From Candidatus Omnitrophota bacterium (GTDB taxonomy: Bacteria; Omnitrophota; Gorgyraeia; Zapsychrales; Fredricksoniimonadaceae): a stretch of DNA of 52,552 nt. Below are positions 22,198 to 44,973 of this stretch, in pieces. Position 1 is the stretch's first letter. Each line of letters starts with the position of its first letter. The DNA lies in contig CAIOTT010000025.1 of NCBI GenBank assembly GCA_903861305.1, positions 1 through 52,552 on the forward strand, read 5' to 3'. The position numbers were made by a program, and so were the translations under genes. The notes under the pieces were generated by a model. That model was not told the origin of the DNA, searched no databases, and worked only from the letters and a program-made list of their open reading frames with translations.

Positions 22198-23058
22198 ATG
22201 AAAAGGACAACCGTTACATTTCCCAACAAGGAAGGGCTGAGCATCAAGGGTATTGTTTTTGAACCCGATGATGCCAGGCGCCGCAAGACGGGTGTGGTGT
22301 ATCTGCCGGGAATTGTCCTGGGGCTTACCGCGGTTCATCGCCTGGCTGTTGACGTTGCCTGCGAATTCCAGCGTGAAGGTTACCCCGTCCTTCTTTTTGA
22401 CCACTCACGCATTGGTGAGAGTGAAGGCGACCTTGTTTCAGGCCCCCATGAGGAATTTGTCACATTTATCAAGCAGGGAGGGCTGGTGGACGACACGCTC
22501 GTAGCCATGCAGTTCTTCTTGTCCCGCTGCGGCCTGGACAACATTATTCTTATCGGGCACTGCGGCGGCGCGCTCACCGCGGTTTATGTGGCTCAAAAGA
22601 GCAACAAGCTCGCCCAATTGATCCTCATCGTCCCGCCGTTGACGGGTGAGCCTTCCGAGGGCGCGGGCATGACGCAGGGCGAGGCCAAGGAATATCTGGC
22701 GCTTTATAAGAACAAGATGTTCTCGTTCGGCGCCTGGTCCCGGTTGTTTCTTGGCAAAAGCGACTATCGTCAGATGATCAAGGCCGTCAAGGCAAAGATC
22801 TTCAGGAAGAAGCCAGAGATAAGGTCCGGTGACGCCAATTTGAACAGGTCCTTTATCCAGGGGCTTGAGTCCGTCGGCGGCATGATGGATGTGAAAATTA
22901 TTTACGGCGACAAGGACCCTGAATTTGATGAATTTAAGGGCTGCCGGAATGAATTCAGCCGCTGGAAGATCCGGACAACCGTGTTCCCGGACGCCTCGCA
23001 TGGTTTTGTGACAGATGAGAGCATGCGCCTGTTGATGGAAGAATTGAAGGCGGCCTGA
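22198..23058 (+). CDS. Alpha/beta hydrolase with Cys nucleophile, exosortase-associated type
   Basis: This 286-residue alpha/beta hydrolase has FDHSRIGESEG, the nucleophile elbow LIGHCGGAL, an acidic YGDKDPEFDEF and a C-terminal ASHGF histidine. The nucleophile position is Cys122 in GHCGG, as in dienelactone hydrolase-type enzymes, not the usual serine. It begins 7 bases after the other hydrolase-like gene. Such pairs are a recognised feature of exosortase/EPS loci, and their substrate is unknown. It could remove or transfer the acyl group handled by the ACP module (inference). Confidence 0.8.
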   Translation: MKRTTVTFPNKEGLSIKGIVFEPDDARRRKTGVVYLPGIVLGLTAVHRLAVDVACEFQREGYPVLLFDHSRIGESEGDLVSGPHEEFVTFIKQGGLVDDTLVAMQFFLSRCGLDNIILIGHCGGALTAVYVAQKSNKLAQLILIVPPLTGEPSEGAGMTQGEAKEYLALYKNKMFSFGAWSRLFLGKSDYRQMIKAVKAKIFRKKPEIRSGDANLNRSFIQGLESVGGMMDVKIIYGDKDPEFDEFKGCRNEFSRWKIRTTVFPDASHGFVTDESMRLLMEELKAA

Positions 23059-23121
23059 ACACTGGCCTGGCGATCGTGCCATGGTTTGCCGGCTGGTTTA
23101 GCAGCAACAAGGAGGAACAGC

Positions 23122-24384
23122 ATGAACGATATTAAGGCAGTTCTATATTTGATAAAGATCGACATCCTTTACAGCGCCAGGTTCAGGCTGTTGTTGTCGT
23201 GGATGCTTTATGCTGCGAGTATCCTCATCGGGATCGTTGACCGCAAGCGTGCCGATGTATTGTTGATGAAGGCCCATCATTATTCCGATTCAGCGGCGTT
23301 CCAGTCTTTTCTTGATCCAGCAATAAAGAAGATGCTGGATCACAAGGGGTATATGCCATCCTTGATGCCTGTGGTGAACATTAAAAAGGAATTGTTCCCG
23401 CGCAAATATATGTTCATTGCCAAGCCTCATAAAGGTTCCCGTGAAAAAGGAGTGGCTTTCCTGATGTACAGCGTTTCTTTTAATGGATTTTTCAGGCAAT
23501 ACGACGCCGAGAGGTTCTTGCAGGATTATTATCTGGTCCTTGAGCCGGACTGGGCGGGGTATTGCAAACCGGAGATATTGACCTACGCAAAGATCGCCTC
23601 TCATCCCGTGATCGTGGAAGCGACGGAACAGCTGGATTTTAACTTCATCAAAAAGCTGGATTCAAACCTTGTCCCTGTGGACTTTGGCGCGAGCGACTGG
23701 CTTGATTCAAATATTTTTCATCCGATCCCCGGCGTTACAAAAAAATATGACTGCATCATGGTATGCGACTGGTACAACTATAAAAGGAATTACGTCCTTC
23801 TCAGGGCATTGTCGAAGATAAAAGAGCACAACCTGAAAGCGGTCCTGGTAAGCAATGCCACGGGCCTGCTGGATACTTTGAAAAATGTGGCGAGATATTT
23901 TGGCGTGCTGGATAACATAACTTTTGTGCAAAAGCTCACCCCCGCGCAATTGAATCTTGCCTATAACGAATCCAAGGTCAATTTATTGCTGTCGTATAAA
24001 GAAGGTTCCAACAAGACCTTGTTCGAAGGCATGTTCGCGAATATTCCCGCGATATTGATCAAGGGGAATGTCGGGGTCAATAAAACATATATCAATGAGG
24101 CGACAGGGAAACTGGTGTCCGAGGACGATCTGCCGGGGGCTTTGGTGATGTTTTCGCGTGACCACGCCAGGTTTCACCCCAGGCAATGGGTGACCGAGAA
24201 TATTTCATGCCAAAGGACCACTCAGAAATTGAATGCTATAATCAAAGAGATCGCCTTGCGCAGCGGTGAGGAATGGACCGAGGATATCAGGGTAAAAGTG
24301 AATGAAGACGGCAAGATGCGCGGGTTGCGGCTTGAGGACCCTGTCCTTGACGCCCGCCTTGATAGTTATGAGAGGAAAGCTTGA
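23122..24384 (+). CDS. Glycosyltransferase, GT4-like C-terminal domain
   Basis: This 420-residue protein has a divergent N-terminal half with one hydrophobic stretch near residues 15-40. Its C-terminal half is GT-B-like: VCDWYNYKRNYVLLRAL, VSNATG, then SYKEGSNKTLFEGMFANIPAIL, which carries the E-x7-E donor-binding pattern. AAGGAGGA lies before ATG 23122, so I reject the longer start at 23086. The N-terminal domain is not one I recognise. It is probably a membrane-associated glycosyltransferase for this polysaccharide. Confidence 0.7.
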   Translation: MNDIKAVLYLIKIDILYSARFRLLLSWMLYAASILIGIVDRKRADVLLMKAHHYSDSAAFQSFLDPAIKKMLDHKGYMPSLMPVVNIKKELFPRKYMFIAKPHKGSREKGVAFLMYSVSFNGFFRQYDAERFLQDYYLVLEPDWAGYCKPEILTYAKIASHPVIVEATEQLDFNFIKKLDSNLVPVDFGASDWLDSNIFHPIPGVTKKYDCIMVCDWYNYKRNYVLLRALSKIKEHNLKAVLVSNATGLLDTLKNVARYFGVLDNITFVQKLTPAQLNLAYNESKVNLLLSYKEGSNKTLFEGMFANIPAILIKGNVGVNKTYINEATGKLVSEDDLPGALVMFSRDHARFHPRQWVTENISCQRTTQKLNAIIKEIALRSGEEWTEDIRVKVNEDGKMRGLRLEDPVLDARLDSYERKA

Positions 24385-33639: not shown

Positions 33640-35108
33640 TGTCAAACAAGCCCAATAAAATATTTGTCCCGTCTGTCCAGGTCCTGTATCTGATCTTCCT
33701 GTGCGCCTTATGGGCCATCCCTGTCTGGCCCCGGGGGCTGTGGTGGCTCTCTGACTTGATCGTGATCTTGCCGGTGTGGGTTTTGTTCATCCCTCCGGCT
33801 CTTTCTTTTTTAATGTCGATCAGGTCGAAAGACATGAAGGGGATCGTTATTAACATCATTTGTTGTGCGGTTATTTTCTTCGGCATTATGGGATATAACA
33901 TTATTTTGCCGGATATGGCGCAACCTTCCGCCACAGCCCCCTTTTCTTTAAAGGTGATCACAGCCAACATGGGTAACGTTACAAACCTGGATGATTTTTT
34001 TCGTATGGTGGCACAGGAAGATCCGGATGTGATCGTATTTCAGGAATTTTCTCCGGAGCTTCAAGAACCCTTGGACTCAGGGTTCATGGGCAGCGGATGG
34101 GATATAAAGATCGAACATGGACTGGCATTGGCAAGTCGTCTGAAGATCCGTTCCATGGATCTCAATGAGCGGCCTCCTTTTGGAGCTGGACGGGGGCGTA
34201 TGGCTACCTATGAACTGGAGACCCCGGTGGGCCTTGTTTACATTTTAGACGTGCATCTGGGGACCCTGCGCGAAGGTGTCGAGGCGGTCATGGAACGCAG
34301 TTTCGATGCCATAAAAGAAATGCAGCGGGTTACCGACCAACAGGAAAATCAATCGCTGATAGCGGCGAGTGTTGCCTGTGACTTGAAGCCTCTGATTGTA
34401 GCGGGCGATTTCAACATGCCGGAGTCAAGCCCGATCTTCAGGGCCTACTGGTCGAAGTATGGCGATGCGTTCGATGAAAAAGGCGCTGGCTTTGGGTTTA
34501 CCAAGCACACACGCTGGTATGGGGTGCGCATTGACCGTATTGTCCACGACAGGAATTGGCGGGCGTTGGAAGCCCGGGTCGGCCCGGATATCGGCAGTGA
34601 CCATTCCCCCGTCATCGCCCGCCTTGTTTTTACCGGGAAAGCAGTTCCTTTGGCTGATCCGCAGAAAACAGCCCCTAATGCGGGTGGCAAGGTTGCCGCG
34701 ATGGTGCCTCTCGCACAGATGGAGACCTCGGGGACGTTCCCTGACTGGGATTTGGAGCGATTCTCCATGATCAGTTTCGGTTATATCATCCCTCAGGGTG
34801 CGACTGTGGCCATGGGTGTCAAGACAGCCTGGGGCGACTGGATATGCCTGGGCGGCACGGGGACGGATCAATGTCCCGCGGCTACGATGGTGCCCGATAA
34901 AACAGTTTTCATTAACGATGGCATGCGGCATGCGGTCAAGATCAATGTCAGGTCAGGCGTGCAGGGCGTCCTGCCCATGGTGAAGTTGTTGACGGGATAC
35001 CAGTTCTTTGGGTCTGGCAAGCTTTCAGCCAGCAACCCGCTTGTGATAGATCATTTGAAGATTTTTGCACGAGATGGTAAGCTTAATAATTCAATGGAGG
35101 CAAAATGA
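33639..35108 (+). CDS. Membrane endonuclease/exonuclease/phosphatase-fold protein with C-terminal beta domain
   Basis: This 489-residue protein has three N-terminal membrane helices (about 14-30, 38-60 and 67-90), then an EEP-fold domain. Its catalytic residues are visible: TANMGN (Asn110), FQEF (Glu136), DVHLG (Asp204, His206), AGDFNM (Asp257, Asn259) and GSDHSPV (Asp321, His322). About 140 further C-terminal residues look beta-rich and are not recognisable. The domain faces the periplasm if the third helix exits, so a phospholipid, undecaprenyl or glycan phosphodiester is a likelier substrate than DNA (inference). It overlaps the exosortase start (ATGA), so the two genes are coupled. Confidence 0.82.
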   Translation: MSNKPNKIFVPSVQVLYLIFLCALWAIPVWPRGLWWLSDLIVILPVWVLFIPPALSFLMSIRSKDMKGIVINIICCAVIFFGIMGYNIILPDMAQPSATAPFSLKVITANMGNVTNLDDFFRMVAQEDPDVIVFQEFSPELQEPLDSGFMGSGWDIKIEHGLALASRLKIRSMDLNERPPFGAGRGRMATYELETPVGLVYILDVHLGTLREGVEAVMERSFDAIKEMQRVTDQQENQSLIAASVACDLKPLIVAGDFNMPESSPIFRAYWSKYGDAFDEKGAGFGFTKHTRWYGVRIDRIVHDRNWRALEARVGPDIGSDHSPVIARLVFTGKAVPLADPQKTAPNAGGKVAAMVPLAQMETSGTFPDWDLERFSMISFGYIIPQGATVAMGVKTAWGDWICLGGTGTDQCPAATMVPDKTVFINDGMRHAVKINVRSGVQGVLPMVKLLTGYQFFGSGKLSASNPLVIDHLKIFARDGKLNNSMEAK

Positions 35109-35917
35109 AAAAACCAGGTGCTTTAGGATTGTGGGTGATCGCCGCGCTTGTGGTACTGGCATACATCCCTGCCTTTGACTGGATGATCAACCGCTGGTCA
35201 GCCCAGGACACCTATTACGGCCACGGGTTCCTGGTGCCGTTCATCAGTGCCTATATCGTATGGCTCAAAAGGAATAAATTAAAAGCGATCCCCCTTAACC
35301 CGACGGGCCTGGGCTGGCCGGTGCTGGTTTCGGGGGTTGTTATCTTTATGCTGAGCGCGGTCTGGCGGGTGTATTTTTCATCGGCTTTTTCACTTTTATT
35401 TGTCCTCATTGGGCTGATCCTCCTGTTCGCAGGGAAAGAGCACCTGAAAACCCTGACGTTCCCGCTGACGTTCTTGCTGTTCATGATCCCTTTGCCGCTG
35501 GTCGCCATTTCCGGGATCAGTTTCAAGCTCAAGATCCTGGCTTCGCAGATTTCAATGGTCCTCATTAATATGCTCGGTGTGCCGGCGATCCGCGAGGGCA
35601 GTGTGATCAAGACCATGCACGCGTATGTTGTTGTTGAAGACCCGTGCTCGGGCATCCGTTCGCTCATCTCCCTTATCGCGGTGGGTGCTTTGATGGCCTA
35701 TTTCAGCCGCCTGTCCAGAGTTCGAAAAACGATCCTTTTCTTGTCGTCGATCCCCATTGCGGTGGCCACGAACGTCATCCGTATCACCGTGGTTTCCCTG
35801 GCCAGTGAAATATACGGCATGGAATTCGCCACGGGCAAGTTCCATGATTTTATGGGAATGATGGTATTTGTCCTGGCGTTTTTGGGGCTGATGCTTGTGG
35901 CCAATATGCTGGAATAG
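35105..35917 (+). CDS. Exosortase (EpsH family)
   Basis: This 270-residue protein with about eight membrane helices has the exosortase catalytic set: Cys181 in EDPCSGIRSL, Arg226 in TNVIRITVVSL and His247 in KFHDFMGMMVF. Exosortases are membrane transpeptidase-like enzymes that recognise the PEP-CTERM tail of exported proteins and cleave near it. The YGHGFLVPFISAYIVW segment near residues 38-53 is also typical. Three PEP-CTERM sequences are encoded within 4 kb downstream, and an EpsI-like gene follows. The single gene has no fused EpsI domain. Confidence 0.95.
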   Translation: MKKPGALGLWVIAALVVLAYIPAFDWMINRWSAQDTYYGHGFLVPFISAYIVWLKRNKLKAIPLNPTGLGWPVLVSGVVIFMLSAVWRVYFSSAFSLLFVLIGLILLFAGKEHLKTLTFPLTFLLFMIPLPLVAISGISFKLKILASQISMVLINMLGVPAIREGSVIKTMHAYVVVEDPCSGIRSLISLIAVGALMAYFSRLSRVRKTILFLSSIPIAVATNVIRITVVSLASEIYGMEFATGKFHDFMGMMVFVLAFLGLMLVANMLE

Positions 35918-35988: not shown

Positions 35989-36612
35989 ATGAACCGTTTG
36001 ACCTACACCATCGTCGTCGTGATCTTTGTTATCGCTGCTGCCGTCAGCCTTTCGTCCTATCTCCCGACACGTTTTGACACCAAAGACGCGGTGCAGGTGT
36101 CCTTTCTCCCCATGACGATCGGCTCCTGGAAGGGGAAGGATGTGCCGCTGACAAAGCGCGATTATGAGATCCTTGAAACCACGAACCTTATCATGCGCCA
36201 ATACACCAATCCGGGCGGCGGCTCCGTGCTGCTTTATATCGTTTATTCCGGGGATAACCGCAAGGTGTCGCACCCGCCGGAAGTGTGCTACATGGGCAGC
36301 GGCGCGACCATTGCGCAAAAAGCGGTCATCAATGTGACGCCGGAGATCCAGGCCAACAAGCTTGTGACGGAAATGCCGGGCGGCGGCCGTGAATTTGTGG
36401 CGTATTGGTATAAGGCCGGGGCACTGAATACCCCTAAATACTTTACCCAGCAGTTAAAGATAGCTTTTCATCGTACGTTCGGGCAAAAAACCTCGGCGGC
36501 TTTGATCCGGATCTCCACAGAGATCAAGGGTGAAAAGGAAAAAGCTGCTGAAGATCTGATCCAGAGGTTTTGCGCTCAAATGGTGCCTTTGTTGCCAAAG
36601 TACGTCCCTTAA
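35989..36612 (+). CDS. epsI: Exosortase-associated EpsI-like protein
   Basis: This 207-residue protein has one N-terminal membrane anchor (about residues 6-24) and a periplasmic EpsI domain: IGSWKGKDVPLTKRDYEIL, LYIVYSGDNRKVSHPPEVCYMGSG and a C-terminal amphipathic region. HPPEVC (95-100) is the family hallmark. EpsI accompanies exosortases, either as a separate protein or fused to their C-terminus, and is thought to help sorting. It follows the exosortase after a 71-base gap holding palindrome C2. The operon appears to end here, before a 387-base intergenic region. Confidence 0.92.
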   Translation: MNRLTYTIVVVIFVIAAAVSLSSYLPTRFDTKDAVQVSFLPMTIGSWKGKDVPLTKRDYEILETTNLIMRQYTNPGGGSVLLYIVYSGDNRKVSHPPEVCYMGSGATIAQKAVINVTPEIQANKLVTEMPGGGREFVAYWYKAGALNTPKYFTQQLKIAFHRTFGQKTSAALIRISTEIKGEKEKAAEDLIQRFCAQMVPLLPKYVP

Positions 36613-36679: not shown

Positions 36680-36804
36680 AGGGTGTTGAAGGTTTGGGAG
36701 GTGATCCGGGAATGCGGCCTCCGACAATAGTATTTTCTATCTAAGTTATTTATTTTGAGTATCTTTAGTGCTCTGCATAAAAAAAGTTGGTGCTTTCTGC
36801 ATGT

Positions 36805-36820
36805 TGGCATGATATTCGCT
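36805..36820 (+). promoter_or_regulatory. Sigma-54 (-24/-12) promoter
   Basis: TGGCATGATATTCGCT matches the RpoN consensus TGGCACG-N4-TTGCW at all but two positions. The essential GG and GC doublets are exactly 10 bases apart. Transcription would start near 36831, leaving a leader of about 170 bases before the PEP-CTERM/sugar transferase gene. An RpoN gene and a sigma-54 activator gene lie 4-7 kb downstream, which supports it. Confidence 0.7.
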
Positions 36821-36848
36821 TGCTTTAATAGTACGAGCAAGGTTGTTC

Positions 36849-36927
36849 CGCCTTCGGATAGAATTAGCAAAGGCGAATAACTAAAACGTTAAAATGCTAA
36901 TTGTGGTTGGAAAACTTCTAGGAAGTT
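36849..36927 (+). ncRNA. Structured 5' leader with potential H-type pseudoknot
   Basis: Within the predicted leader, CGCCTT (36849-36854) pairs with AAGGCG (36870-36875). AATTAGCA (36862-36869) pairs with TGCTAATT (36895-36902). The strands interleave with no gap between the second and third strand, and the last loop is A-rich, which is H-type pseudoknot geometry. A separate hairpin, AACTTC-TAG-GAAGTT, is at 36913-36927, closed further by TGGTT/AACCA. It resembles no riboswitch that I recognise. The rest of the 387-base gap holds the dyad and the promoter, and I see no gene in it. Confidence 0.45.
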
Positions 36928-36999
36928 CTCTCAAACCAAACTCCCGTTAAATTATAGAAAGAAGCAAGTTTTATAAAAACCTTAAAATTTACACAGAGA

Positions 37000-37845
37000 A
37001 TGTCATTTTATACCATTCTTATCGGATTCTTATTGTTTTGTTCATTTCCTGTGGCTCAGGCAGGGGTGGTTGTTTCCAACCCTGATCAGGCCGTGGTGTC
37101 AATGAACAAACTGGACGACCTGAAGGTTGCGGCCTCTTCTATAGATGCTGATGCCAAAGGCCCTGTCCAACCGGTAAAATCACATGCCCCGGAGCCTTCA
37201 ACCCTGGCTTTATTGTTCAGCGGTATTTTGGGGGTTATTGTCAGGGTCGCCCGCAAGAGTTTTGCAGTATTCAAGCGCGGGATGGATTATGTGATCGCAT
37301 TATCAGTCCTTGTTTTTGCAGCGCCGTTGATGGCATTTGTTGCGCTGCTGGTCAAGGTTACTTCAGCCGGGCCTGTCATTTATAGCCAGACACGCGTTGG
37401 CAAGGGCGGCAAGACGTTCCGTATTTACAAATTCCGCACCATGCGCGTTGACGCGGAAAAAGGTACCGGCGCTGTGTGGGCCCAGAAGAACGACCCGCGC
37501 CTGACACCGATCGGCGGGTTTTTGCGCAAGTGCCATCTGGATGAACTGCCCCAGGTGTTCAATGTCCTCAAGGGCGATATGAGCATTGTCGGCCCGCGTC
37601 CTGAAAGGCCCGAGATCGTCAAGGACCTGAAACTTGTTATTTCCGATTATGACAAACGCCTGCAGATCAAGCCCGGGATCACGGGCCTGGCGCAGGTCAT
37701 GAACAGATACGACGAAACGATCTCTGATGTCCGCAAGAAGGTCAAGTATGACATTCTCTATATCAAGAAGATGTGCTGGCTGGTCGAGATGCGTGTTTTG
37801 GCGTTGACGTGCGTTGTGATGCTAACAGGTAAAGGTGCCAGATAG
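37000..37845 (+). CDS. PEP-CTERM sorting signal fused to polyprenyl-phosphate sugar transferase
   Basis: This is a 281-residue fusion. Residues 1-21 are a signal peptide (cleavage expected after AQA), and residues 22-63 are a short low-complexity passenger. A PEP-CTERM signal follows: PEPST at 64-68, a hydrophobic helix at 69-81, then basic RVARK at 82-86. From about residue 91 the chain is a bacterial sugar transferase: KRGMDYVIAL with its re-entrant helix, YSQTRVGKGGKTFRIYKFRTM, NDPRLTPIGGFLRK, DELPQ and GDMSIVGPRPERPE. That domain moves a sugar-1-phosphate onto undecaprenyl phosphate and primes glycan synthesis. The topology is consistent, with the passenger outside and catalysis inside. 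The ribosome binding site is weak. It lies behind the sigma-54 promoter and heads the PEP-CTERM gene run. Confidence 0.88.
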   Translation: MSFYTILIGFLLFCSFPVAQAGVVVSNPDQAVVSMNKLDDLKVAASSIDADAKGPVQPVKSHAPEPSTLALLFSGILGVIVRVARKSFAVFKRGMDYVIALSVLVFAAPLMAFVALLVKVTSAGPVIYSQTRVGKGGKTFRIYKFRTMRVDAEKGTGAVWAQKNDPRLTPIGGFLRKCHLDELPQVFNVLKGDMSIVGPRPERPEIVKDLKLVISDYDKRLQIKPGITGLAQVMNRYDETISDVRKKVKYDILYIKKMCWLVEMRVLALTCVVMLTGKGAR

Positions 37846-40363: not shown

Positions 40364-41211
40364 GACCCTTATCATTCCCTGTATTCCTTGCGGTTTGTAT
40401 CTTGATGGCGGGTTGCGGCAACGGCCACGACCAGTACTCCCTGGAGCGCGGATTTTTTGCTGTCCAGAAGAAAGCACAGGCCATTATTAACAATCCAGAA
40501 GCAACGCCGCCTGCAGAATTAAAGAACGTGGTCGACGCCCTTACGGGTTTTACGAAAACGGATCCTGGAAAAAAGGTGGCTGTTGACGCAAGGTTCATGA
40601 TCGCAAGGCTTTACCTGGCGAAGAAGGAATACACCAAGGTCCGGGAAACCCTTGCCGGGGTTAGGTCGGCGTATGCGAAAGTCGGGCCGGTCTGCGCTGA
40701 AGCGATGTTCATGGACGGGCTGGCCTGGGAGGATCAGGGCGAATGGGATCGGGCGCTCACGAAGTACCAGGAGATCATGAACAGGTATCCCACGACACCT
40801 CGCGCCATTGAGCTCCCTATTTATATCGCCATGCACTACAAGGAAAAATTAAAGCCCGACAAGATGATCGAGGCGTTCCATGCGGCAGAGGTTTATTACG
40901 CGGTGCTCGCGGAAAAATACCCGCGATCCCAGATGGGTTACAAATGCAGGGTGATGACCGCCCAGGTCCAGGCCGAGCTGAAGGAATGGCCGGATGTGAT
41001 CAAGACACTTGAAACTACGATCGCGGAGTTCAAGGGGAATGTTCCGGTTGTCTCGATCAGGCTTGATATCGCCAACATTTACGGCACCAAGATGAATGAT
41101 AAAGCCACGGCGCGGACCCTCCTTCAGAAGATCATTGACGAGGATCCGAAAGCGCCTTCCGCCAACGTCGCCCGTGCGATGCTGGATAACCTTTCCAAAG
41201 AGAAGCCATGA
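40360..41211 (+). CDS. TPR-containing lipoprotein
   Basis: This 283-residue protein has a lipoprotein signal peptide ending ILMAGC (lipid attachment at Cys19). Helical tetratricopeptide-like repeats follow, with the typical spacing of small residues: AVDARFMIARLYLAKKEYTKV, AMFMDGLAWEDQGEWDRALTKYQEIMNRYP and ANIYGTKMNDKATARTLLQKIIDEDPKAP. The layout recalls BamD/YbgF-like and PrsT-like TPR proteins. It probably sits at the outer membrane. It is coupled to both neighbours by ATGA overlaps, which links it to the sigma-54 regulator. Confidence 0.85.
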   Translation: MRPLSFPVFLAVCILMAGCGNGHDQYSLERGFFAVQKKAQAIINNPEATPPAELKNVVDALTGFTKTDPGKKVAVDARFMIARLYLAKKEYTKVRETLAGVRSAYAKVGPVCAEAMFMDGLAWEDQGEWDRALTKYQEIMNRYPTTPRAIELPIYIAMHYKEKLKPDKMIEAFHAAEVYYAVLAEKYPRSQMGYKCRVMTAQVQAELKEWPDVIKTLETTIAEFKGNVPVVSIRLDIANIYGTKMNDKATARTLLQKIIDEDPKAPSANVARAMLDNLSKEKP

Positions 41212-42728
41212 ACGAAAAAGATATCTTTGATGACGGCAAGACCTTCCTTACCTCGACGCTCCAGCGCATGATCCTCGTGCTGAAGGCGTCATCGGGGTCG
41301 CTGTTCCTTTTCAACCAGCGCGACAATGAACTGGTGCTCAGCGCCTACTACAACGCCAAGGGCTTTGTCCTCACGGATATCAAGAAACAGATCGGCGAAG
41401 GCGTGGCGGGCTCGGTGCTCAAGATCCGCCGCGCGATCCTGGTCCACGACATTGACAAGGACCCGCGTTTCAACAGCAACGGCTTTGAGCATTATCACGG
41501 CAAGTCCTTCATCTCCATCCCGCTTTTTTGCAACGATGAATTGATCGGCCTGATCAATATCACGGACAAGGTGTCCGGCGAGCCGTTCACCGAGGAAGAC
41601 CTCGCGTTCGCCGACAACGAGCTCAAGCACCAATTGCACCGCCTGGCCGACCAGCGCGCCATCATTGAGGAAAACCAGTGCCTGCGCGACAAGATCGCCA
41701 AGGCCTCGCGCGGGAAGTTCCAGAACATTACCGGGAAACACCCCCGGATGCTGAAGATCTATTCGCTCATCGAAGCCGTCGCGTCCACACGGGCCACGGT
41801 GCTCATCAACGGTGAAAGCGGGACGGGGAAAAGGCTGGCCGCCCACGCGATCCATAATTGCAATCCCGAGGAACGCAAGAAGCCTTTTGTTGAGGTCAGC
41901 TGCGGGGCGTTGACCGAAACGCTGCTCGACAGCGAGCTTTTCGGCCATGTGAAGGGGGCTTTTACCGGCGCTTTCCGTGACCGCAGCGGGCGTTTCGAGA
42001 TGGCAGACAAGGGCACGATTTTTCTCGACGAGATCGATTCCTTCACGCTGCCCATGCAGGTGAAACTGCTGCGTGTCCTGCAGGACGGCGAGTTCGAACG
42101 GGTGGGCGACGGCAAGACCATCAAGGTCGACATCCGCATCATTGCCGCGACGAACCAGAACCTGCAGAAACTCATCGAGCAGGGGAAATTCCGCAAGGAC
42201 CTCTATTATCGCCTTAATATCATCAATATCGAATTGCCGCCGTTGCGCGAGCGCGTCTCGGATATACCTCTGCTTGTCCACGACCTTATCATCAAGCACG
42301 CGAAGCAGCTTGGCAAGGATGTCCGTTCCGTGTCGGCGGAGACCCTGGAACGCCTGAAGCGCTACCCCTGGCCGGGCAATATCCGTGAACTGGAGAACGT
42401 GATCGAGCGGGCCGTCATCCTGTCCCAGGGCCCGGTCCTTGAACTGCACGACATGCCGGACCATTTCCATAATGTGGAACCATCGATCCATGTCGACGCG
42501 GAATTGTTCCCCGATGTGCCCGATGACAAGCTGCGTTCCGTCGCCAGGGATTCCGAGTACAGGCATATCCTGGACGCTTTGAACGTCGCTGAAGGCAGCC
42601 GTTCCAAGGCCGCTGAGCGCCTGGGCATCGACCGCACCACGCTCTACAAGAAAATGGTCAATCACGGGATGATCAAGGTCAAGAGGAGCCGCACCGCGAA
42701 GGCGTCAATGTTCCCGGCGGAGGCTTGA
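41208..42728 (+). CDS. Sigma-54-dependent activator with GAF sensor domain
   Basis: This 506-residue bacterial enhancer-binding protein has an N-terminal GAF-type domain at about 15-165 (SLFLFNQRDNELVLSAYYNAKG, IPLFCNDELIGLINITDK). The AAA+ domain has Walker A GESGTGKR (about 202-209), the sigma-54 contact loop GAFTGA (about 250), GTIFLDEID and an arginine region YRLNIINIELPPLRER. A Fis-type HTH is at the end (SRSKAAERLGIDRTTLYKKM). Unlike the PrsR regulators of other PEP-CTERM systems it has no receiver domain, so it probably senses a ligand or redox state through GAF. It is the obvious candidate to act at the promoter at 36805. Confidence 0.95.
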   Translation: MNEKDIFDDGKTFLTSTLQRMILVLKASSGSLFLFNQRDNELVLSAYYNAKGFVLTDIKKQIGEGVAGSVLKIRRAILVHDIDKDPRFNSNGFEHYHGKSFISIPLFCNDELIGLINITDKVSGEPFTEEDLAFADNELKHQLHRLADQRAIIEENQCLRDKIAKASRGKFQNITGKHPRMLKIYSLIEAVASTRATVLINGESGTGKRLAAHAIHNCNPEERKKPFVEVSCGALTETLLDSELFGHVKGAFTGAFRDRSGRFEMADKGTIFLDEIDSFTLPMQVKLLRVLQDGEFERVGDGKTIKVDIRIIAATNQNLQKLIEQGKFRKDLYYRLNIINIELPPLRERVSDIPLLVHDLIIKHAKQLGKDVRSVSAETLERLKRYPWPGNIRELENVIERAVILSQGPVLELHDMPDHFHNVEPSIHVDAELFPDVPDDKLRSVARDSEYRHILDALNVAEGSRSKAAERLGIDRTTLYKKMVNHGMIKVKRSRTAKASMFPAEA

Positions 42729-44018
42729 GGCGGGGAGCTTCAGTTCTTCACGGTATTTGGCCACGGTGCGCCGGGCGATCCTGATCGCGTTCTCCTTCAG
42801 CAGTATTCCCGCCAGGTCTTCATCACTCAGAGGTTGTTTCCTGTCTTCACCCTCGATCAGTTCCTTGATCCTGTCTTTGCACAGGTTGGAGGGGGTGAGG
42901 GTGCCGTCGTCCTGTTTTATCCCGCTGGTAAAGAACTCTTTCAGGGCGATGATCCCCTGCGGGGTTTCGGCGTACTTGTTCATGATGATGCGGTAGACCG
43001 TGGATTCATGCATGCTGATCTTTTCAGCGACTTCCCTGCAGCTCAGGGGTTTCATGTTGGCGAGCCCGTTGAGAAGAGCGTCTTTCTGGATGTCGGTAAG
43101 GACCTCCAGGACTTTGCGCAGCGTGCCGTGGCGGCGTGAGATCGCCCGCAGGAGTTCGAGCGCTTCCTGCAGTTTTTCCTTTAAATATTCCCTGGTCTCG
43201 GGTGGGAGGTTCTCGTTCTTCAGGATCTGGCGGTATTCTTCGTTGATGTAGAGCGACGGCAGGTTCTCCTGGTTGATGAATATCTCCAGCGCGCCGTCTT
43301 TCTCGTCGATGAAGATGTCAGGCATCACGGTCTGGTTGTGCCCCGGAGAATAGTTCTGGCCGGGCCTGGGGTTCATGGCCGTGAGCTTTGCGACGCAGAG
43401 TTCAATGTTGGCAACGGACGTTCCCAGGTCCTTCGCGATCTGCGAGAACTTCCGCTTGGCCACGTCATCCAGGTGGCGTTCGATAACAGGCTGCAGCAGA
43501 GGGTCGTTGTCGTTGCGGGTGTTGCACTGGATCAGGAGGCATTCCCGGATGTCGCGCGCGCCGACTCCCGCCGGCTCGAAGGTCTGGATCAATTTCAGGA
43601 TGGTTTCCACATTGCCGGTGGGCAAAGACAGGGTCTCGCTGATCTCGGCGAGGCTTGCTTTCAGGTAGCCGTCGTCATCGATATTCCCGATGATCTCCTG
43701 GCCGGTCTTCATTTCTTCCGGGGTCAGGGGCGATACCGCCAGCTGGCGCAGGAGCACTTCCTGCAGGGACGGTGCTTTTATCAGCAAAGCAAAGGGATCA
43801 ATGTCGTCTTCGGGCGCAGCCTTGCCGGAATTCCCTGAGTGGCGTGAGGCGTGCCGCACGGAAGGCGCGGCCCCGGAATCTTCCAGGAAGGGGTTGTTCT
43901 CCAGCTCCTCGTTGAGCAAGCCGTTAAGGGCCGCCAGAGGCAGGCTGAGGATCTTCAATGATTGTTTGAGCTCCGGGACCATGAGTTTCCGGAGTTCGGT
44001 CTTTTGGGATAAATTCAT
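42705..44018 (-). CDS. rpoN: RNA polymerase sigma-54 factor
   Basis: This 437-residue RpoN has the activator-responsive region I at the N-terminus (MNLSQKTELRKLMVPELKQ), then LLNEELENNPFLED, a core-binding region, an HTH segment and the RpoN box ARRTVAKYREEL near the end. The start is at 44018, where GAAGGAAA precedes ATG; the track start 30 bases upstream is less likely. It is the only minus-strand gene and it overlaps the activator's 3' end by 24 bases, so the two transcripts converge and are antisense there. It faces away from the cvfB-like gene across 139 bases in which I see no convincing promoter. Confidence 0.95.
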   Translation of the reverse strand: MNLSQKTELRKLMVPELKQSLKILSLPLAALNGLLNEELENNPFLEDSGAAPSVRHASRHSGNSGKAAPEDDIDPFALLIKAPSLQEVLLRQLAVSPLTPEEMKTGQEIIGNIDDDGYLKASLAEISETLSLPTGNVETILKLIQTFEPAGVGARDIRECLLIQCNTRNDNDPLLQPVIERHLDDVAKRKFSQIAKDLGTSVANIELCVAKLTAMNPRPGQNYSPGHNQTVMPDIFIDEKDGALEIFINQENLPSLYINEEYRQILKNENLPPETREYLKEKLQEALELLRAISRRHGTLRKVLEVLTDIQKDALLNGLANMKPLSCREVAEKISMHESTVYRIIMNKYAETPQGIIALKEFFTSGIKQDDGTLTPSNLCKDRIKELIEGEDRKQPLSDEDLAGILLKENAIRIARRTVAKYREELKLPASSLRREH

Positions 44019-44157
44019 AGGGTTTCCTTCTACACAACTATAGCTCATGAGAGGCTAAAAAAACAAGGTGTTACCCGATCTGTTTCAATTTTACAACACC
44101 GCGCAAGTTCCCGGGATATTGTGGTATTATTATAAGAAAAATTGAAGGGAGCATCAC

Positions 44158-44973
44158 GTGACGCAGGTGAATAAACCGCGGGGATCAAAGGTTGTCAAGG
44201 ATCCGGACAGTATCGCTGACCCGGCCGCACTGGTCGGGATGTTCGATCATTTCAAGGTTGTTTCCGTGACCGATTTCGGCGCTTTTCTGGACTGGGGTTT
44301 TTCCAAGGACCTTTTTGTCCCCTGGGTCGAACAGCAGCGCAAGATGCGCGAAGGTGAATCCTATATCGTTTACATTTATTGCGATGACAAGGGCCGCTTC
44401 GCGGGGTCGTCCAAACTGGAGAAGCACCTCGTCGATGTCCCTGTCGATATCAGGATCGGCGACACGGTCGACCTGCTGATCTGCGAGGCGACGCCGCTGG
44501 GGTACAAGGCCATCGTCAACAATGCTTACCGGGGCCTGCTTTACAAGCAGGAAGTGTTCCAGCCCCTGAAATACGGGCAGAGGACCTCGGGCCTGGTCAC
44601 CAAGATCAGGGAAGACGGCAAGATCGACCTGGCCCTGCAGAAAACGGGGTACCAGCCGGTGAGCGATCTTTCGAAAAAGATCCTGGACCATCTGCAGGCG
44701 TCCGGCGGCTCAAGCCCTCTGACGGATAAAACTCCGCCGGAGGAGATCTACCGTTTGTTCGGCATCAGTAAAAAGAAATTCAAGATGGCCATTGGCCTTT
44801 TGTATAAAGAACGCCAGATCACGATCGAACCCTTGGGCATCAAACGCGCGGCACCTGCTGCGCCGACGGTTGCTGCGCTGAAGCCGTCCTTGCCTGAGAA
44901 AAAAATACAGGGACCGGGGGGCACAAAACCGGTCTTCCCTGCGCAGAAGGCGCGCGGGAGGGCTTTAAGGTGA
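44158..44973 (+). CDS. S1-domain RNA-binding protein, CvfB-like
   Basis: This 271-residue protein resembles CvfB/YitL. It has S1-type OB folds (FKVVSVTDFGAFLDWGFSKDLFVPW; DTVDLLICEATPLGYKAIVNNAYRGLLYKQEVF; RTSGLVTKIREDGKIDLALQK) and then a winged helix (PPEEIYRLFGISKKKFKMAIGLLYKERQI). A basic Ala/Pro-rich tail of about 45 residues is added. The start is GTG 44158, chosen because GAAGGGAG lies 6 bases before it and no ATG fits. It is probably an RNA-binding post-transcriptional regulator. Confidence 0.85.
   Translation: MTQVNKPRGSKVVKDPDSIADPAALVGMFDHFKVVSVTDFGAFLDWGFSKDLFVPWVEQQRKMREGESYIVYIYCDDKGRFAGSSKLEKHLVDVPVDIRIGDTVDLLICEATPLGYKAIVNNAYRGLLYKQEVFQPLKYGQRTSGLVTKIREDGKIDLALQKTGYQPVSDLSKKILDHLQASGGSSPLTDKTPPEEIYRLFGISKKKFKMAIGLLYKERQITIEPLGIKRAAPAAPTVAALKPSLPEKKIQGPGGTKPVFPAQKARGRALR

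Follow-up and report, generated by a model that had tools for sequence, protein, structure and literature searches.

The mRNA leader of a fusion gene that encodes a signal peptide, a PEP-CTERM domain, and a bacterial sugar transferase in a Candidatus Omnitrophota genome very probably carries a selected RNA structure, namely, an H-type pseudoknot followed by a hairpin, as judged from comparison of its sequence with that of a sister species. We consider this structure a candidate cis-acting 5' element of one Omnitrophota genus that would affect the lifetime or the translation of the mRNA, a reading to which we assign a probability of roughly 0.4. The computational support comes from the pseudoknot geometry, the covariation of both stems, the promoter in front of the leader, the hairpin behind the pseudoknot, and the restriction of the structure to two species.

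The stretch analyzed here, hereinafter the window, encompasses 52,552 nucleotides and represents contig C25 of a 1.74-Mb genome that is 68% complete. The leader is located between an EpsI-type gene, itself preceded by an exosortase gene, and the fusion gene, which is the first gene on its 3' side and is followed by two PEP-CTERM genes, a gene for a TPR protein, a GAF/sigma-54 activator gene, and rpoN (Table 1). The activator is encoded at the syntenic position in the sister species, with 72% identity. The activator and rpoN (41208-44048) adjoin the exosortase locus, with synteny kept in the sister species, and together they possibly constitute a self-contained sigma-54 regulon. Many Omnitrophota genera share this fusion of signal peptide, PEP-CTERM, and sugar transferase, and in nearly all cases the gene is preceded by a sigma-54 promoter. 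The fusion gene of the sister species (contig C107 of genome G002, 22580-23467) contains, within its transferase portion, a single in-frame TAA, which reflects either an error of the draft assembly or a broken gene.

Table 1. Predicted elements of the leader and the neighboring genes, in window positions
Feature	Position	Strand	Remarks
Exosortase gene	35105-35917		Upstream of the EpsI-type gene
EpsI-type gene	35989-36612		Precedes the leader
Sigma-54 -24/-12 promoter, TTGGCATGATATTCGCT	36804-36820	+	12 of 14 consensus positions; predicted +1 near 36831
Invariant 5' flank of the pseudoknot, GGTTGTTC	36841-36848	+	Identical in the sister species
S1 5' strand, CGCCTT	36849-36854	+	Direct sequence; in the sister species, two pairs altered on both sides
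L1, CGGATAG	36855-36861	+	Same length (7 nt) in both species; 2 of 7 bases shared
S2 5' strand, AATTAGCA	36862-36869	+	In the sister species, two pairs altered on both sides and one terminal pair lost
S1 3' strand, AAGGCG	36870-36875	+	Covariation comparison
L3, A-rich, AATAACTAAAACGTTAAAA	36876-36894	+	19 nt, against 18 nt in the sister species, with strong divergence
S2 3' strand, TGCTAATT	36895-36902	+	Covariation comparison
P3 hairpin, TAG loop	36904-36938	+	Inner stem 36913-36927; no U-tract behind
Candidate SD, AGAAAGAAG, and ATA codon (36973-36975) homologous to the sister ATG	36956-36975	+	In-frame upstream translation, ungapped N-terminal match
Signal peptide/PEP-CTERM/bacterial sugar transferase fusion gene	37000-37845	+	Pfam PF02397, PF07589; NCBIfam TIGR03025
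GAF/sigma-54 interaction/Fis-type HTH activator gene	41208-42728	+	Candidate activator of the leader promoter
rpoN (sigma-54)	42705-44048	-	TIGR02395 above cut-off

Two stems, S1 (6 bp) and S2 (8 bp), interleave as an H-type pseudoknot, with loops L1, L2, and L3 of 7, 0, and 19 nt, respectively. The initial annotation, made from this one sequence, had described interleaved stems with zero bases between the inner strands and an A-rich last loop, followed by a perfect hairpin with a TAG loop, and all these features are indeed present; the hairpin, AACTTC-TAG-GAAGTT, is nested in a longer one, P3, whose folding in the window gives z = -2.24. When the window was scanned on both strands for perfect stems in such an arrangement (S1 of at least 6 bp, S2 of at least 8 bp, L1 of 3-10, L2 of 0-1, and L3 of 4-25 nt), a single occurrence was found in 52.5 kb, with 0.22 expected from dinucleotide shuffles; shuffling the 180-nt leader produced the geometry in 25 of 20,000 cases. 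The minimum free energy of the nested folding of the whole leader is ordinary (z = -0.61), so that the evidence of structure comes from geometry and covariation rather than from stability. The energy of the pseudoknot is estimated, approximately, at -10 to -12 kcal/mol, against -14.1 and -15.5 kcal/mol for the best nested folds. The 5' strand of S1 can alternatively pair with an upstream AAGG in the window, forming a weak 4-bp hairpin, P0 (-3.7 kcal/mol), or with AGGGUGG in the sister species, where a 7-bp 5' hairpin competes with S1. Because the pseudoknot is no better in energy than the nested folds and because of this competing hairpin, S1 and S2 might alternate instead of coexisting; covariation supports each stem singly, and we infer that the two would form together in vivo.

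A protein search with the fusion gene over 55 relatives yielded 20 ortholog loci, the window included, among which only the sister species of the same genus (MBPbin6, genome G002; fusion protein 65% identical) has a similar leader. A long-DNA search of the relatives missed this homologous leader, which was recovered by the protein search and then a covariance model. The two leaders align almost gap-free across the pseudoknot, which lies at the same place in the sister species (S1 of 6-7 bp, S2 of 7 bp, L1 of 7, L2 of 1, and L3 of 18-19 nt), the only such geometry in the 48,168 bp of its contig. From the window to the sister species, S1 changes from CGCCTT/AAGGCG to TACCTT/AAGGTA, and S2 from AATTAGC/GCTAATT to GGTTAGC/GCTAACC. 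Thus, four pairs, two per stem, are altered on both sides, all by paired transitions; one terminal pair of S2 is lost in the sister species, and not a single one-sided change to another standard pair occurs across the two stems. The inner halves of the stems (CCTT/AAGG and TTAGC/GCTAA), the stem ends beside the junction, and GGUUGUUC are invariant, and 59% of the core columns are identical. Between these two species of one genus, the stems changed at 9 of 28 positions (19 kept), with 8 of the changes compensated, compared with 16 of 26 positions (10 kept) in loops L1 and L3. P3 retains its fold despite sequence divergence, and the hairpin homologous to it in the sister species has z = -3.01.

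Among the S1 and S2 cells, 96% are paired, compared with 18-54% for slid controls. Column shuffles matched the observed covariation in 23 of 500 cases because the covariation is drawn from two sequences. A simulation with unlinked substitutions at 32-45%, which accounts only partly for paired transitions, put the probability of four or more compensated pairs with no more than one broken pair at 0.0003-0.0025. The paired substitutions in an orthologous leader that the initial annotation had proposed as a check of both stems are therefore found, in this pair of sequences; given that the sister species kept the shape by altering both partners of four pairs, the RNA shape itself probably has been under selection.

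The leader appears to have a sigma-54 promoter of its own, with the GG-N10-GC arrangement of the -24 and -12 elements that is characteristic of sigma-54-dependent promoters of PEP-CTERM systems. An equivalent motif (at least 11 of 14 positions) is located within 200 nt upstream in 18 of the 20 fusion-gene orthologs, compared with 0.1% in shuffled upstream regions. Starting from the predicted 5' end, GGUUGUUC begins after about 10 nt. The conserved promoter predicts that the leader is transcribed, and because, in addition, both stems covary, control at the RNA level, as suggested from the start, is plausible. In Proteobacteria, sigma-54 sites have been described upstream of PEP-CTERM genes, with a motif-to-start distance of 71 nt on average, and the motif was seen in Proteobacteria only (Haft et al. 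2006, PMC1569441); in Aquincola, RpoN dependence of a PEP-CTERM gene has been demonstrated (PMC9850573). The -24/-12 promoter is common to the proteobacterial region, which consists of motif 1 and the sigma-54 motif 2 (PMC1569441), and the locus described here. Unlike the proteobacterial systems, this locus belongs to Omnitrophota, the gene behind the promoter is a fusion gene and not a plain PEP-CTERM gene, an RNA structure is added in the leader, and the neighboring activator is not of the PrsR type: it has a GAF domain, and its TIGR02915 score is under the cut-off.

Several other sites were noticed around these promoters. LacI-type palindromes (GAAAGCGCTTTC, GAAAACGTTTTC, and similar ones) occur near the fusion-gene sigma-54 promoter at six loci, and one lies upstream of the promoter in the sister species; none is evident near the promoter in the window. 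A second perfect sigma-54-type site of the same genome (contig C65, 39929-39945) precedes a gene that starts with MSKQKMTITDVTDKLGV and resembles a helix-turn-helix regulator.

The pseudoknot is confined to a narrow phylogenetic range. With model R1, convincing matches were limited to the window and the sister species across the order (81 genomes), the family (32), and samples of the class and the phylum (384 each). Four further matches (L056, L081-L083) score far below these two, and the weak matches L036-L044 from the order, class, and phylum, where inspected, lacked S2 or the sigma-54 promoter. The exact pattern was detected at 7 loci in the GTDB contig collection, of which only that in MBPbin6, on the same contig as in G002, is genuine; a viral match to the pattern is unrelated to the leader pseudoknot. 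Altogether, about 85,000 genomes yielded no third copy, and none of the other sigma-54-like sites that were found in the two genomes has such a structure behind it. In other genera, the orthologous leaders measure 5-64 nt and lack the pseudoknot, compared with 142 nt (to the ATA) or 169 nt (to the ATG) in the window and 130 nt in G002, and the pseudoknot and P3 account for the extra length. The pseudoknot therefore looks like an addition at the genus level behind an older sigma-54 promoter.

The initial annotation also relied on a weak ribosome binding site of the fusion gene. This holds for the annotated ATG at 37000, which has hardly any SD, but not for the ATA located nine codons before it, which is homologous to the sister ATG and has a purine-rich SD 8 nt upstream. 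The argument is weakened accordingly, and the weak site may be an artefact of start-site assignment: the gene may be initiated at a rare AUA, its start may have shifted to 37000, or the assembly may contain an error. The SD-like sequence lies outside the fold, 53 nt downstream of the 3' strand of S2 in the window and 46 nt in the sister species.

This distance bears on whether the pseudoknot is a ligand-binding riboswitch controlling the fusion gene, perhaps, with competition between P0 and S1 as the switch, which we regard as distinctly unlikely. preQ1-type aptamers have the same H-type geometry with an A-rich L3 (PMC11625349), GGUUGUUC and the stem ends by the junction are invariant, and the alternative pairing of the S1 5' strand in both species offers a possible second state. 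As in preQ1-I riboswitches, the pseudoknot lies in an mRNA leader; here, in contrast, the stems, of 6 and 7-8 bp, are longer, L3 spans 18-19 nt, and the genes are unrelated to queuosine. A small translational riboswitch, such as preQ1-I, would have conserved loop nucleotides and an SD or anti-SD in the knot or a terminator, whereas in this leader neither an SD nor a terminator is linked to S2, and no expression platform is recognizable. The loops, usually the most conserved parts of aptamers, diverge most even within one genus, the reverse of what is expected of a ligand pocket, and the element is confined to two species with one copy each. A scan against 4227 Rfam families gave nothing above the gathering threshold and no relevant match at E-values up to 5, in agreement with the initial annotation, which had recognized no known riboswitch; its comparison to small riboswitches, in contrast, is not supported, given the loop divergence, the distant SD, and the absence of a terminator. 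A new class of Omnitrophota leader RNA, in which P0 and S1 would compete for one strand and a ligand or a protein would thereby switch a sigma-54-transcribed exopolysaccharide-priming gene, is kept as a remote case, given the weakness of P0 in the window.

EAR and ops are structured RNAs early in polysaccharide-gene transcripts, as are LoaP-dependent leaders and JUMPStart, and the pseudoknot, which is near the 5' end and leaves the SD untouched, shares this early position. A protein-binding or antitermination element of this kind at the head of an exopolysaccharide transcript is, nevertheless, unlikely. Specialized NusG paralogs act on long capsule, polysaccharide, and antibiotic operons (PMC7819879), but only a single NusG-family gene was found, on another contig of this 68% complete genome; the large glycosyltransferase cluster is upstream of the leader and only a short gene set follows it; no terminator is established downstream; and there is no sequence match to those leaders. 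A possible RNA-binding protein with an S1 domain and a CvfB-like winged helix is encoded beside rpoN (44158-44973) and would be compatible with a protein site. Operator palindromes can also change symmetrically, the inner halves of the stems are invariant, and other orthologs have palindromes, for example, GAAAGCGCTTTC, close to the start site, as would be the case if S1 and S2 were two long-spaced pairs of half-sites for a transcription factor bound just downstream of the promoter. Such a DNA-level element is improbable: two different inverted repeats that interleave, have spacers of 15 and 25 nt, and meet at a zero-nucleotide junction show the geometry of a pseudoknot and not of a usual dimer operator, and the conservation of P3 as a fold would be left unexplained. 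Accidental pairing on top of the residual similarity of two related leaders is still less credible. It draws on the comparison of two sequences with 59% identical core columns and on a geometry expected 0.22 times per window, against four compensated pairs in a structure that had been proposed beforehand from one sequence, the simulated probabilities, and the greater divergence of the loops. Other candidates were discarded: a leader peptide or frameshift stimulator, as no upstream frame common to both species runs through the knot; an intrinsic terminator, as the leader contains no terminator-like site and no U-tract follows P3; and CsrA-type sites, as the GGA of L1 is absent from the sister species.

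For the structural 5' element that we favor, the following scenario can be proposed. Transcription by sigma-54 RNA polymerase would start near 36831, with the GAF/AAA+ regulator of the adjacent gene set as the probable activator, and the first ~110 nt of the mRNA would fold into a 5'-proximal pseudoknot, with S1 stacked on S2, a 7-nt L1, an L2 of 0-1 nt, and an A-rich L3, followed by P3 and then by an unstructured stretch of ~20 nt bearing the ribosome binding site. The effect, most likely, would be mechanical: the structure would shield the exopolysaccharide/PEP-CTERM mRNA at its 5' end and leave the ribosome binding site in an open context, perhaps, through the involvement of a bound protein; a ligand aptamer is not favored. 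The ability of 5'-terminal structures to stabilize mRNAs is established in work listed in PMC3997798. The leader stem-loops of ompA, papA, and aprE, likewise, lie within a few nucleotides of the 5' end and precede an accessible ribosome binding site, and the position of the structure described here is compatible with such a role; those are simple hairpins, whereas this is a pseudoknot, and its stabilizing or translational function is putative.

The leader adds a covariation-supported structured RNA, absent from Rfam, to a phylum whose RNA biology has been hardly studied, and places it exactly, behind a sigma-54 promoter conserved across Omnitrophota and before a PEP-CTERM/sugar-transferase fusion gene. 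As a defined RNA of 110 nt, it is amenable to probing in vitro. If functional, it would mean that one genus has added a second layer of control to the kind of promoter that governs PEP-CTERM systems in Proteobacteria.
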